Positions 5,867 through 62,262 of a DNA stretch of 64,000 nt are shown piece after piece (position 1 is the stretch's first letter; each line of letters begins with the position of its first letter). Under the pieces are notes generated by a model. It saw only the letters and a list, made by a program, of their open reading frames with translations. It searched no databases and was not told the DNA's origin. The stretch covers positions 1,488,001 through 1,552,000 of the forward strand of contig NZ_CP095397.1 of assembly GCF_023008545.1 (NCBI RefSeq), written 5' to 3'. Made by a program: the position numbers and the translations under genes. This stretch comes from Natribaculum luteum. Lineage in GTDB: Archaea; Halobacteriota; Halobacteria; Halobacteriales; Natrialbaceae.

Positions 5867-5941
5867 GGGCACGTAGCTCAGTCCGGATAGAGCGTCGGAC
5901 TTCTAATCCGACGGTCGTGGGTTCGAATCCCATCGTGCCCG
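5867..5941 (+). tRNA. tRNA-Arg (anticodon TCT)
   Basis: A 75-base cloverleaf. Acceptor GGGCACG pairs with CGTGCCC (5934-5940) with discriminator G at 5941. The anticodon stem TCGGA/TCCGA encloses loop CTTCTAA with anticodon TCT at 5902-5904. The T-arm is GTGGG-TTCGAAT-CCCAT. CCA is not encoded. Its last bases form the left attachment site of the relic element that follows. Confidence 0.95.
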
Positions 5942-5943
5942 TA
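5929..5943 (+). other. Left attachment site (attL) inside tRNA-Arg
   Basis: The first copy of the 15-base direct repeat spans the T-stem 3' side, the acceptor 3' strand, the discriminator and two bases beyond. Identity stops exactly outside these 15 bases in the second copy. Confidence 0.7.
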
Positions 5944-6154
5944 CGAAAACTGTCTGTTTAGGAGTTTTACCTGGCCGTCCGTCTGACGTCCGGTACCGTC
6001 GACATTCGGTGGATTACCGATTCGATTCCTACCCTGCGAATCTGGATTCCGTTCAACGGTTGAACGCGCCCTCTCGCCCTCATGCAATTTTCGTTGTCGG
6101 GCGGTCACTGAGGTGGTCGGCGTGACGGTCTCGCCGTGGCCGTCGACGGACCAC

Positions 6155-6244
6155 TCGACCTGCCTCCACTGTGGCGCGCACGTCACCGATCGGTTCCGGC
6201 ACGTCTTCGGTGACGACTCGCGATCGCGCGTGCGTGTGAAGGCA
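6155..6244 (+). pseudogene. Relic of a small CxxC zinc-finger protein (DUF7563-like)
   Basis: One reading frame of this stretch contains CLHCGAHVTDRFRHVFGD. This strongly resembles the N-terminal half of small haloarchaeal proteins with C-x-x-C-G-x-x-V-x-x-x-F-x-R-V-F-G-D followed by a second C-P-x-C pair. The second Cys pair is absent here and the frame continues into unrelated Arg/Ser-rich sequence. No start codon is convincingly placed. It is interpreted as decayed cargo of the integrated element. The rest of the 5.94-6.60 kb stretch has no gene that I can support. Confidence 0.4.
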
Positions 6245-6450
6245 CGTTCGTCGACCCGGACCTGGTATCGTCCCTGTGTCTGGACCGGCGCGTGAGAGTA
6301 AAATCAGTATCGGCCGCGTAGTCGAACTTGAAAACCGCGAGGCAAAATCAGTTCAAGGTAGTGTTGTAATCCCCTCTGTAGCTCCTTGATTATCAGATCT
6401 GAAACTGTCTAAAGACAAATGACTGATAGATATCTCCTCACGATCGCATA

Positions 6451-6459
6451 ACTATATAT
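6451..6459 (+). promoter_or_regulatory. Possible TATA element ahead of the pilin pair
   Basis: ACTATATAT is the most AT-rich box upstream of the pilin genes. It lies about 145 bases before the chosen ATG (6603), which would imply a leader of about 115 bases. A weaker alternative, CGAATATC near 6568, is at normal leaderless distance. I cannot decide between them. Confidence 0.3.
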
Positions 6460-6602
6460 GGTACAAGTCTACTGGATGTTATCAGCATCTGCAACGAACG
6501 GGGGCGGAAAGCGTGGCCGCAGGGTCTATCCCCAGTCTTCGAGTGCCACCGGACAAACCAGAAGTCCGAATATCAGCTTTCCTACCGTTCAGGCGATGCG
6601 AA

Positions 6603-7067
6603 ATGATTCAAACCATGGACGTTACACGACTCAGATCGAAGCTCATCGGGAGTGAAAACGAACGAGCAGTATCGCCAGTTATTGGTGTCATTCTTATGGT
6701 CGCAATCACGGTTATTCTTGCAGCCGTAATTGCGGCATTCGTGCTTGATCTTGGACAAGGTCAGCAGGAGAATGCCCAGGCGGGTGTGTCAATTGACGGT
6801 GATGAAGTAACTGTCACTAGTCTCAATAATGCAGATGGTATCTACTTTGTTGATAATAGTGGCGTGATGGGTTCGATCAGCGTTGGGTCAACCGATAGTA
6901 ATGATGCAACAGTGAATCAAGTCGGCTCAACTGTCGATCTAGACTCACAGGGAGCGTCTGGAACTGTGAGTATTGTTGCATATATTGGTGATGCGAGTGG
7001 TGCTGGTACCAACATCGAGGACAATGTTGAAACCACGACCACGATCCAAACGCACGAGATGAGCTAA
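6603..7067 (+). CDS. Archaeal type IV pilin-like protein (1 of 2)
   Basis: The start is at [14 protein letters not shown] (ATG 6603); MDVTRLR at 6615 is an alternative. This is a 154-residue protein. A basic leader ends at [19 protein letters not shown], the archaeal pilin N-terminal domain. In this class the PibD prepilin peptidase cleaves before the hydrophobic helix, and that helix packs in the filament core. The C-terminal part is Ser/Asp/Thr/Gly-rich beta-type sequence with no Cys. The codon third positions are more AT-rich than in neighbours, fitting the mobile-element context. Confidence 0.85.
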
Positions 7068-7071
7068 AAGC

Positions 7072-7551
7072 ATGTCTTGGCAAGCTACACTCGTGGGCAA
7101 TGAAAAAGAAAGAGCAGTATCGCCAGTCATTGGTGTGATACTGATGGTAGCAATTACTGTAATCTTAGCAGCAGTGATCGCTGCATTTGTCCTTGATCTT
7201 GGACAAGGCCAGCAAGACAATGCTCGAGCCGGTGTTCAGGTCGACGTCTCAGATAGTGCAAAAGAGGTGCAGATATCGGTGACGTCGTTAGACAACGCAG
7301 AAGAGGTTCTCATCCGAGGTGACGTAGGCGAGTGGGACGTTCCTGCTGGTGGTGGTAGCGGTTCATTCGCCGATGCTGAACCATCCCTATCTACGACAGG
7401 CGCATCTACCACGCTTGAATGGGAAAGTACGGGATCGAGAACAGATGGGGAAGTATACTTGTCGTCTAACTCGGGGACTCTCTCAGTTGTCGGAGTGACA
7501 GACGACGGAACAGAAACCACCATCCAAACCGTTGACTACGACTTCAGTTGA
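7072..7551 (+). CDS. Archaeal type IV pilin-like protein (2 of 2)
   Basis: This 159-residue protein starts four bases after the previous stop. Its first 45 residues after the leader are almost identical to the upstream pilin ([13 protein letters not shown] through LDLGQGQQ). The C-terminal domains differ strongly apart from the ending TTIQT. The pair looks like a tandem duplication with a conserved assembly helix and diversified exposed domains. Such pilins form adhesion filaments or minor pilins. Two consecutive pilins with no motor ATPase nearby must rely on assembly genes elsewhere. Confidence 0.87.
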   Translation: MSWQATLVGNEKERAVSPVIGVILMVAITVILAAVIAAFVLDLGQGQQDNARAGVQVDVSDSAKEVQISVTSLDNAEEVLIRGDVGEWDVPAGGGSGSFADAEPSLSTTGASTTLEWESTGSRTDGEVYLSSNSGTLSVVGVTDDGTETTIQTVDYDFS

Positions 7552-7559
7552 AGTCGTAG
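7536..7559 (+). terminator. Perfect stem-loop over the pilin stop codon
   Basis: CTACGACTTC (7536-7545) and GAAGTCGTAG (7550-7559) form a perfect 10-bp stem with the 4-base loop AGTT. The pilin TGA (7549-7551) lies in the loop/stem boundary. A pyrimidine- and T-containing stretch follows. A role in transcription termination or mRNA 3'-end protection is plausible. Confidence 0.5.
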
Positions 7560-7625
7560 CAGTCTTCACCAATTTTCACCGACACGTCCGTCAGCCTCGA
7601 CCGATGATGACGACGATCGACTTGG

Positions 7626-8018
7626 ATGATGAGACAGTACCACCGCCCGGACGTGACCGACGACTACGGCTGCAAACCTCTGATCGCGACTCAGTACGGC
7701 CGTCTGCCGGGCAACACGATCCGGAAGACGTTGTACCGGGTCACTCGTCCCTGTTGGCGCGACGAACCGTGCCCGCGCGACCGCGACCTCGAGGAGTGTG
7801 AAGCCGTCCATCTGGACCACGCGAGCACGTGCCCGTCGTCGCGATCTCCCCACGACGTCCGTAGTGGCCGGGTGGCCTACTATCGACGAGAAGACGTTCC
7901 CCGACGGATCGTCAAGGATCGGCTCAACGCGAGCGATGACATCCTCGATCGCCATTACGACCGCCGTTCCGACCGCGAACAGGCCGAACAGCGCAGTAAC
8001 TTCCTTCTGGACCTATGA
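7626..8018 (+). pseudogene. C-terminal fragment of haloarchaeal tyrosine integrase/recombinase
   Basis: The frame encodes the last ~125 residues of a XerC/D-like haloarchaeal integrase: VTDDYG..PLI.T.YGR, a Cys-bearing segment CWRDEPCPRD, then DHASTCPSSRSPHDVRSGRV with the catalytic H-x-x-R box, and LNASDDILDRHYDRR with the nucleophilic Tyr. The first part of the catalytic domain (first Arg, Lys) and the whole N-terminal core-binding domain are missing. The bases just upstream do not continue in frame. It lies about 50 bases from the right attachment repeat, as expected for a tRNA-targeting element. Confidence 0.8.
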
Positions 8019-8066
8019 GAGACACGAACGCGAAACGGAGAGTCGCATCGCACCAGGGCATCTCTA

Positions 8067-8081
8067 CCCATCGTGCCCGTA
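8067..8081 (+). other. Right attachment site (attR)
   Basis: This is the second copy of the 15-base direct repeat CCCATCGTGCCCGTA. The bases after it (ATTCTGCGGCGAAC) resemble the sequence that follows other tRNA 3' ends in this window, so this looks like the original downstream flank of tRNA-Arg before integration. Confidence 0.7.
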
Positions 8082-8157
8082 ATTCTGCGGCGAACGGACG
8101 TGAGGAGCGAATCTGGGAGCAACTTCGCTGCGACCGTGGTTCGAATCCCATCGTGCC
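8067..8157 (+). repeat. tRNA-Arg tail repeat: displaced downstream hairpin unit
   Basis: Read in the tRNA direction, the unit has: an acceptor-end copy (8067-8080); a spacer TTCTGCGGCGAAC; a partial inverted T-arm GCGAATC; a core GGGAGCAACTTCGCTGCGACCG; and another T-arm/acceptor copy (20 bases, 8138-8157, identical to tRNA 5920-5939). The 34 bases 8115-8148 differ at one position from the minus strand of 62097-62130 at the CAT tRNA locus. No coding potential is apparent. Confidence 0.7.
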
Positions 8158-49539: not shown

Positions 49540-50018
49540 AAATACTCGCAGCAGAAGTATCGTCCCGAATACCGTATCCTCTGCTTACGAAGTTGTTCGC
49601 GGAGAATATGCCGCCTCCCGGATTTGAACCTCGCCGAGACGGTTCTGCTCGGTCGCTTCGCTCCCTGTGCGGACTGCGACTCGTCTGGTTCAAATCGCGG
49701 TCGGGTTGCATATTTACAGCTCGCGAATATGCTCGCCGCAAAAGTATGCCGCCTCCCGGATTTGAACTTCCGAAAGACTCGCTTTCGCTCGTCTTTCGAC
49801 TTCCCGCTCGCTGCGCTCGCGGGAACGGGGACAGCTCGATCTTCAGTCGAGTCCGACAGCTTCCCGAGTGGAAATCGCGCGGAAAAGCCATGCCACCTCC
49901 CGGATTTGAACCGGAGGAAGACGGTCGCCTTGCTTCGCTCGGGCGCTGCGACTTCCAGGGCTCAAATCGCGATCGGGTTGCACATTTGCAACTCGCGAGT
50001 ATGCTCGCCGCAAAAGTA
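49540..50018 (-). repeat. tRNA-Phe tail repeat cluster (three partial copies)
   Basis: Partial copies of the tRNA-Phe T-arm/acceptor end (CCGCCTCCCGGATTTGAAC or close) start at 49607, 49745 and 49889, before the real tRNA at 50019. Between copies lie spacers with inverted T-arms (GGTTCAAATC 49687-49696; CTCAAATC 49961-49968). Their cores are GC-rich, such as CTTCGCTC..GCGCTGCGAC, and a second conserved spacer CGCGAATATGCTCGCCGCAAAAG recurs with small changes before copies. One unit also contains a copy of the anticodon arm (49827-49852). There is no ORF with protein-like composition. Confidence 0.8.
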
Positions 50019-50865: not shown

Positions 50866-51347
50866 TGGCGGACTCGAGGCGGGCCGAACGACGCCGATGT
50901 GCTGGCGTCGCTTTCGGATCGCCGCGACCGACCCGTGTCGACTCGATTTCCTCTCGTCGTTGCTCTGCCGTCAGAAAGAAGCGATTGGGCAGATCCGTAA
51001 TCGATCTCTCCCGTGAACAGCCCGTGCTCGACTCGAGTTGGATCGATCTGCCTCGAGCTGTGCCCGTGCCACGGTACCTTGCTCGCGACAGCAATAGCAG
51101 GCTTGGGTGGGTTCGAACTACGCGAAGACGGTCGCTCTCGCGTTCGCTCGAGCGCTGCGTCTTCTCTTGTTCGAACCGCCACTCGCATTATACACCTGCT
51201 GCTCGCGGACTTGCTCGCAGCAGGAGTAGTGGGCTCGGGCGGGTTCGAACTACGCCGAGACGTGCTCGCGTCGCTGCGCGCGTCTCCTCTAGTTCGAACC
51301 GCCGCTCGCATACATTTCTCTGGCTCACTAATTGTTCGCCAGAGAAA
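50866..51347 (-). repeat. tRNA-Val tail repeat cluster (two clear copies, one decayed)
   Basis: Partial copies of the tRNA-Val acceptor/T-arm lie at 51230-51250 (TGGGCTCGGGCGGGTTCGAA continuing C) and 51100-51118 (one decayed form near 50873). Each is followed on the plus strand by a spacer ending in an inverted T-arm (GTTCGAACC 51292-51300; 51169-51177). Between copies, perfect hairpins occur: CATTTCTCTGGC/GCCAGAGAAATG (51313-51349), CCTGCTGC/GCAGCAGG (51195-51224) and GAAGACG/CGTCTTC (51124-51164). The upstream half of the gap from 50765 is less repetitive. Confidence 0.8.
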
Positions 51348-61879: not shown

Positions 61880-62040
61880 TCGGCCAACGGCCACGGCGAG
61901 ACCGTCACGCCGACCACCCCGTTTCGGATACGAATTTCGCACGCAGGCGTCGACCCGAAACCAGTGACTGGTTCGGTTCCGGTTCAGACACCCCCTCGAG
62001 CGAAACAGAAATCCGGCGGCTCGAGTGGGTCAGGGTGCGA

Positions 62041-62187
62041 TTAGCGGCCGAATTTATTTCGGCCACGAATCGACTTATTTTTGGATGGGCCATGACGGAT
62101 TCGAACCACGGTCGCAGCGAAGCTGCTCCCTGATTCGAATCCGCCAGCGTTCCATTCCACACTGCTCGCTGTCGCTCGCAGGTTCCA
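62041..62187 (-). repeat. CAT-tRNA tail repeat unit
   Basis: One partial copy of the CAT-tRNA acceptor/T-arm end occurs at 62086-62108 (TGGGCCATGACGGATTCGAA continuing CCA). It is followed on the plus strand by a core (62107-62130) and an inverted T-arm TTCGAATCC (62134-62142), pairing with GGATTCGAA (62097-62105). The core is almost the same as that at the tRNA-Arg locus. A further stem GGCCGAA/TTCGGCC (62046-62064) lies on the outer side. Confidence 0.75.
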
Positions 62188-62262
62188 TGGGCCCTGACGG
62201 ATTCGAACCATCGACCACTCGGTTATGAGCCGAGCGCTCTAACCAGACTGAGCTAAGGGCCC
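62188..62262 (-). tRNA. tRNA with CAT anticodon (Ile2 likely, elongator Met possible)
   Basis: A 75-base cloverleaf on the minus strand. Acceptor GGGCCCT/AGGGCCC with discriminator A, anticodon stem CTCGG/CCGAG with loop CTCATAA, and T-arm GATGG-TTCGAAT-CCGTC. It is not the initiator type (no AGC-type acceptor). Haloarchaeal elongator Met genes that I know carry an intron in the anticodon loop, and this one has none. That favours tRNA-Ile with modified CAT; this assignment is inference. Confidence 0.85.

Follow-up and report, generated by a model that had tools for sequence, protein, structure and literature searches.

Two nearly identical 34-base stretches in a 64,000-nt window of the 3.66-Mb Natribaculum luteum chromosome (the whole stretch analysed here, whose coordinates we use throughout) are two copies of one core of a tRNA-linked repeat family. 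Members of this family occupy the 3′ flank of about half of the tRNA genes here, and the family extends across dozens of haloarchaeal genera. We tentatively read them, with close to an even chance of being right, as haloarchaeal DNA palindromes that are anchored on the tRNA T-loop, with tips that travel through ectopic conversion or template switching.

Direct reading bears out the match itself: bases 8115-8148 (GGGAGCAACTTCGCTGCGACCGTGGTTCGAATCC) and the reverse complement of 62097-62130 (GGGAGCAGCTTCGCTGCGACCGTGGTTCGAATCC) are identical at 33 of 34 positions, beyond which they diverge into the acceptor ends of tRNA-Arg and tRNA-Met. The T-arm consensus is ruled out as the sole cause, because the 21-nt non-tRNA part alone (GGGAGCAGCTTCGCTGCGACC) is still found far above chance, twice in the window at up to three mismatches against 0.00 expected from shuffles. 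Plain decay of local duplications is also ruled out, as the same core stands at unrelated tRNAs and in unrelated genera; genome-wide, the class-A core to which these stretches belong is found at about 11 tRNA loci of this genome. The preliminary description had opposed a repeated or converting core to local duplication. Since the units are local duplications too, both ideas are partly true.

Anatomy of the units

We derived the unit plan from the 300 nt that follow each of the 52 tRNA predictions of the Natribaculum genome. It runs from a tRNA copy (T54 to the 3′ end) through a trailer, an inverted copy of the same tRNA's positions 54-64 (the anti-T arm) and a core of about 25-66 nt to the next T54-to-3′-end copy, which begins at G53/T54 and extends to the discriminator base. 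Units measure about 100 nt, contain no genes and have spacers of some tens of nucleotides. Their cores include class A (AGGGAGCAGCTTCGCTGCGACCGTG), class B (AGACGAGTCGCAGCC...CGTCTCGGCGTGG), class C (CCTGGAAGTCGCAGC...GACCGTCTTCCTTCGG) and class D (AGACCGAGGTTCTG...CAGGTTCTCGGGCGTGG). Acceptor copies decay while arms and core persist. The trailers are often palindromic themselves, with the tip CGAACAA..GTGAG; the one at 51312-51347 (minus strand), for example, has its own palindrome in which locus-specific outer arms enclose this conserved tip, the same plan as that of the units. In Thr(CGT), Arg(CCG) and Pro(CGG) units of several genera, the tRNA copy carries an extra T-loop base (TTCACAATC, TTCGACATC) and the inverted arm still fits the real T-loop.

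The window contains five tRNAs, found with ARAGORN and Rfam, and seven units (Table 1). The CAT tRNA gene lies 102 nt upstream of its copy, a correction to the preliminary description. That description also did not include the core classes A-D or the tandem arrays, and it missed the inverted T-arm copy at 62144-62132, upstream of the core, by which the whole unit becomes palindromic; the resulting hairpin (62093-62143) has a fold z of -7.6 as DNA and as RNA. The second tRNA-Phe unit is built differently: its anticodon-arm copy is perfect, its insert consists of two palindromes, and the pseudocopy is split exactly at 53/54, an arrangement that the congener shares.

Table 1. Coordinates of tRNA genes, repeat units and the inserted element in the window
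Feature	Position	Strand	Basis
tRNA-Arg(TCT); T-loop-to-3′ end 5920-5941 is the source of copies	5867-5941	+	ARAGORN, Rfam
Integrated-element remnant between tRNA-Arg and its unit	5942-8066	+	absent in congener
15-bp copy of the tRNA-Arg 3′ end (CCCATCGTGCCCGTA), displaced; opens the tRNA-Arg unit and forms the right-hand direct repeat of the 2.1-kb insertion	8067-8081	+	direct repeat
Decayed inverted T-arm GCGAATCT, palindrome lost	8107-8114	+	direct reading; DNA fold z 0.2
Class-A core of tRNA-Arg unit	8115-8137	+	direct reading, shuffle test
tRNA-Arg copy, G52 to acceptor, 20/20 to 5920-5939	8138-8157	+	direct repeat
tRNA-Phe unit 3: anti-T arm, class-B core, copy 49629-49609	49609-49699	-	
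tRNA-Phe unit 2: 27-nt anticodon-arm copy up to position 53 (49826-49852), ~58-nt palindromic insert, T54-to-3′-end copy 49767-49747	49747-49852	-	
tRNA-Phe unit 1: anti-T arm, class-C core, copy 49911-49891	49891-49971	-	
tRNA-Val(TAC) unit 2: anti-T arm, core (class C), copy 51118-51098 (17/21)	51098-51179	-	
tRNA-Val(TAC) unit 1: anti-T arm, class-B core, T54-to-3′-end copy 51250-51230	51230-51303	-	
tRNA-Val trailer palindrome ATTTCTCTGGCGAACAATTAGTGAGCCAGAGAAAT ("hairpin I"), duplicated along with many units	51312-51347	-	
CAT tRNA copy, G53 to 3′ end, 20/21	62086-62106	-	comparison with tRNA
Class-A core AGGGAGCAGCTTCGCTGCGACCGTG of CAT tRNA unit	62107-62131	-	direct reading, shuffle test
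Anti-T arm, inverted copy of CAT tRNA positions 54-64 (GCGGATTCGAATC)	62132-62144	-	direct reading
CAT tRNA (annotated Met)	62188-62262	-	ARAGORN

The other 34-base stretch had been assigned to a tRNA-Arg locus, but tRNA-Arg sits 2.2 kb upstream of the copy at 8138 rather than adjacent to it. The copy at 8115 is a decayed unit: its anti-T arm is largely lost, it no longer folds, and an integrated-element remnant of 2.1 kb separates it from tRNA-Arg. This remnant is flanked by a 15-bp acceptor-end repeat and carries two type IV pilin genes, paralogues with 79% identity over 146 nt, along with an integrase C-terminal remnant (7626-8018) that shows at most 64% identity to haloarchaeal plasmid regions, several of them annotated as site-specific integrase. 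Its repeat resembles the attachment site of SNJ2-type integrases, which is an acceptor end of about 13 bp (PMC8371274). In the congener, element and unit are both missing, and tRNA-Arg is joined directly to the sequence found here after 8160.

Distribution and turnover of the family

About 26-28 of the 46 chromosomal tRNA genes of this Natribaculum genome carry one to three units, counting decayed ones at Trp and Thr-TGT, and about 40% of tRNAs have none. The unit-free genes include the tRNA-Ala genes at three identical loci, apparently within rRNA operons, and tRNAs in the neighbourhood of ribosomal-type operons. Scanning Halobacteria with the class-A core pattern at up to three mismatches, we found it in 102 of 391 genomes, covering 44 of 86 genera, and the reversed-pattern control gave no match; within the taxonomic family the count is 80 of 125 genomes. 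The core was absent from sampled members of the phylum outside Halobacteria. Nor did it match anything in IMG/VR (exact pattern), PLSDB or INPHARED, which argues against a virus or plasmid vehicle.

The cores are tightly linked to tRNA genes. Class-A cores lie 3′ of a tRNA on the same strand in 54 of 55 cases in a first locus set and in 68 of 70 at further loci (122/125 in total), yielding the family of matches, each entering a different tRNA's acceptor, that had been set beforehand as the check on a dispersed tRNA-linked element. Nearly all linked cores are within 360 nt of the tRNA, and most run into that tRNA's own T54-to-acceptor sequence, the acceptor end of which is sometimes decayed. 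In most of the exceptions, the core lies in an array with a tRNA that has been displaced or falls beyond the stretch read. Core orientation is fixed (135/142), and the lone "inverted" match is a chance match elsewhere. We rejected inversion of the core by a recombinase acting between the inverted arms, with no true inverted core found among the 142.

Comparing one pair of species within Natribaculum, we found that units turn over as wholes. The Leu(CAA) site is filled in one congener and empty in the other, the filled site having the form R-39 bp-R′, where R is the tRNA 3′ end plus 36 bp of trailer. The congeners differ by one whole unit at His and Val(GAC), and unit number in the window genome's species versus the congener is 3 versus 5 at Phe, 2 versus 3 at Ser(CGA) and 1 versus 3 at Leu(TAG). 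These differences are gains or losses over direct repeats of about 22 bp.

Cores are also replaced in place. At Val(CAC), a class-B core here corresponds to a class-D core in the congener, while the 88 nt to its left (tRNA end, trailer and arm) are identical and the tRNA copy resumes after it. Gln and Arg(GCG) show similar replacements. Such exchange of the core within an otherwise unchanged unit, seen in one species pair, is the most direct sign of tip exchange, and it fits the earlier suggestion of a repeated element or converting template. Across orthologous units of the two congeners, arm and core together are 94% identical, the 5′ spacer 83% and the 60-nt downstream flank 64%.

Host-matched arms, shared tips and the nature of the helix

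The arms follow their own tRNA. Among 139 non-redundant hairpins taken from 88 loci, 1324 of 1529 arm positions agree with the tRNA to which the hairpin belongs, compared to a mean of 1140 and a maximum of 1177 with shuffled tRNAs (2000 trials). At the variable T-loop position 57, arm and own tRNA agree in 130 of these 139 hairpins versus 73.5 expected by shuffling, and in 130 of the 144 class-A units listed by the family scan. The arm is the inverse of positions 54-64: the match ends at about 64 and falls to background beyond 65. An alternative origin of the arm as a copy of the T-stem (49-53) through hairpin opening is disfavoured, as by 17 to 3 the informative sites at 62-63 favour the inverse of 61-65. 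Where the tRNA copy is mutated (n = 14), the arm follows the copy in 5 cases (for instance in Met unit 2, TTAAAATC/GATTTTAA) and the tRNA in 8; re-matching of arm and copy is therefore only occasional.

The tips, by contrast, do not follow the tRNA, and the same core appears at many tRNAs in many genera. Within the core stem, one pair is C-G in 85 and G-C in 54 of the listed class-A units, so that 139 of 144 are Watson-Crick. Core mismatches are conserved as well, namely a T.G at the arm junction and a tandem G.A.

If a helix is selected on the transcript, its sense-strand mismatches should be G.U rather than A.C. In the helices of 173 hairpins, with the two junction columns that hold the fixed T.G removed, the ratio of G.U to A.C is 41:43. 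Acceptor and T stems of 120 real tRNAs, used as a control, give 68:2 (Fisher 3e-12 versus the unit helices). It follows that the units are not maintained as RNA helices as tRNA stems are, though a weaker RNA role is possible, and class A alone leans mildly towards G.U (48:30). An initial position-wise count of transitions had hinted at a G.U bias and hence at an RNA-selected hairpin, but the excess disappeared once the junction columns were removed. Fold strength does not discriminate, being high for DNA and RNA alike. At the Rfam 15 gathering score, only the five tRNAs match within the window and no other known structured RNA does.

Candidate explanations and related systems

Each unit is a duplicate of the 3′ part of a tRNA from T54, usually with its trailer, and ends in a palindrome. 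On the reading that we tentatively favour, cores would pass from one tRNA locus to another through ectopic gene conversion or through template switching, with the near-universal T-loop arms serving as homology; because exchange would use these arms, arms and trailers would remain local while tips travel. Recombination between the direct repeats may raise or lower unit number, and hairpin-templated (palindrome) correction may at times re-match arm and copy. Several observations count against this reading, among them the mild G.U lean of class A and the rarity of re-matching. Arm homology between different tRNAs is only 8-12 nt, which is short for ordinary recombination; free palindrome correction would not leave the conserved T.G and tandem G.A mismatches; and the conservation of arm and core above that of the flanks could reflect function instead.

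Selection on the transcript is one rival. The units are always on the same strand directly 3′ of the tRNA, fold strongly (RNA z of -7.6 at 62093-62143), retain arm and core better than the downstream flank and covary in the core stem, all as expected of a structured RNA in the pre-tRNA 3′ trailer that acts in termination, in 3′ processing or as an anti-T switch on the tRNA fold. We nevertheless regard this as quite unlikely given the mismatch ratios above, the gain and loss of units between congeners, the unit-free tRNAs and the many arms or acceptors that have decayed. The absence of a G.U excess would agree with miniature site-specific mobile cassettes, in which a tyrosine recombinase, perhaps from an integrative element, inserts the unit at G53^T54, the tRNA is restored because the unit brings or duplicates its 3′ end, and the folded palindrome is the recombination site. 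The constant G53/T54 boundary, the direct repeats of the tRNA 3′ end, the precise filled and empty sites, the tips that vary on constant basal arms, as they do in folded recombination sites, and the window's element remnant with its integrase fragment, located at one of these tRNAs (tRNA-Arg), all point this way. But the units carry neither genes nor a recombinase, a unit taken from one tRNA would damage a second one even though cores are common to different tRNAs, and core replacement leaves arms and trailer untouched. Furthermore, class-A matches are lacking in the viral (IMG/VR), phage and plasmid collections, and the remnant's repeat is the 15-bp acceptor end rather than T54. This reading is possible but on balance unlikely. 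Its extension to an integron-like system, with Halobacteria tRNA genes as the primary attachment sites of gene-free mini-cassettes that start at T54, restore the tRNA and end in a folded recombination hairpin, the cassettes being moved by a putative recombinase that recognises the T-loop palindrome, seems improbable to us.

Integron attC sites, which IntI recombines as folded single strands, combine a variable-length tip, paired basal arms, an asymmetric bulge and a G/TT boundary, and they occur in arrays. The units share each of these features, but their arms read GTTC[AG]AA/TT[CT]GAAC instead of the attC boxes GTTRRRY/RYYYAAC, they lack gene cassettes, and we identified no integron integrase for them. 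REP/BIME elements, which have a cognate RAYT transposase, are short imperfect palindromes with a conserved tip, present in many dispersed copies and clustered. The units are likewise short, conserved, multicopy palindromes that form clusters; unlike REP/BIME, they show no general extragenic spread, being bound to tRNA 3′ flanks in the proportion given above, and their outer arms are dictated by the host tRNA. Because the arms follow the host tRNA, the units also lack the terminal inverted repeats of a parent transposon that mark a MITE. Among haloarchaeal non-coding elements, the palindrome-associated transposable elements (PATEs) of Haloquadratum have near-terminal palindromes (PMC3119063); they are related to IS605-type transposons, whereas the units are tRNA-bound with host-matched arms.

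Copies of tRNA 3′ ends are also typical of archaeal integration (PMC8371274, PMC3119063), and the insertion at 5942-8066 indicates that such elements use tRNA-Arg. The units could accordingly be scars or decoys of attachment, the copies being attR-like leftovers or retained decoy sites. This idea, already weakened by the arm and core data, strikes us as very improbable: an att duplication gives no reason to expect an inverted 54-64 arm or a core that is conserved and shared, the roughly 100-nt units follow a regular internal plan, and it is the acceptor copies that decay while arms and core persist. Compared to the att duplications of haloarchaeal integrative elements (SNJ2-type integrases, HF1-group proviruses), the units share a direct repeat of the tRNA 3′ end downstream of an intact tRNA. 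Cargo with an integrase between the repeats is found only in the separate insertion, and the units differ in being tandem and gene-free, in their own-tRNA inverted arm, in a core common across tRNAs and in copies that start at T54.

We found no earlier description of this tRNA-linked repeat family in Rfam or in the open-access literature searched. Its parts are familiar, as tRNA 3′ duplications and extragenic palindromes; we met host-dictated arms together with travelling tips in neither source. The units confuse calls of att sites and genomic islands at tRNAs. They provide a natural and countable trace of ectopic conversion or palindrome-templated repair in polyploid archaea and, if they are mobile, would be a new class of tRNA-targeted element.

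Two further features of tRNA loci emerged from these comparisons. Non-standard tRNA genes, possibly of viral origin, form dense clusters on a plasmid and elsewhere, located on N. luteum contig C2 (681274-683007, without repeat units) and in the congener on C1 (6995-11080) and C2 (586079-588480). A second sequence common to tRNA flanks, GGTGGTCGGCGTGACGGTCTCGCCGTGGCCGT, lies at about 6107-6140 (plus strand) and about 61880-61921 (minus strand) and begins an apparent small zinc-ribbon ORF behind tRNA-Arg(TCT), tRNA-Arg(CCG) and the CAT tRNA.
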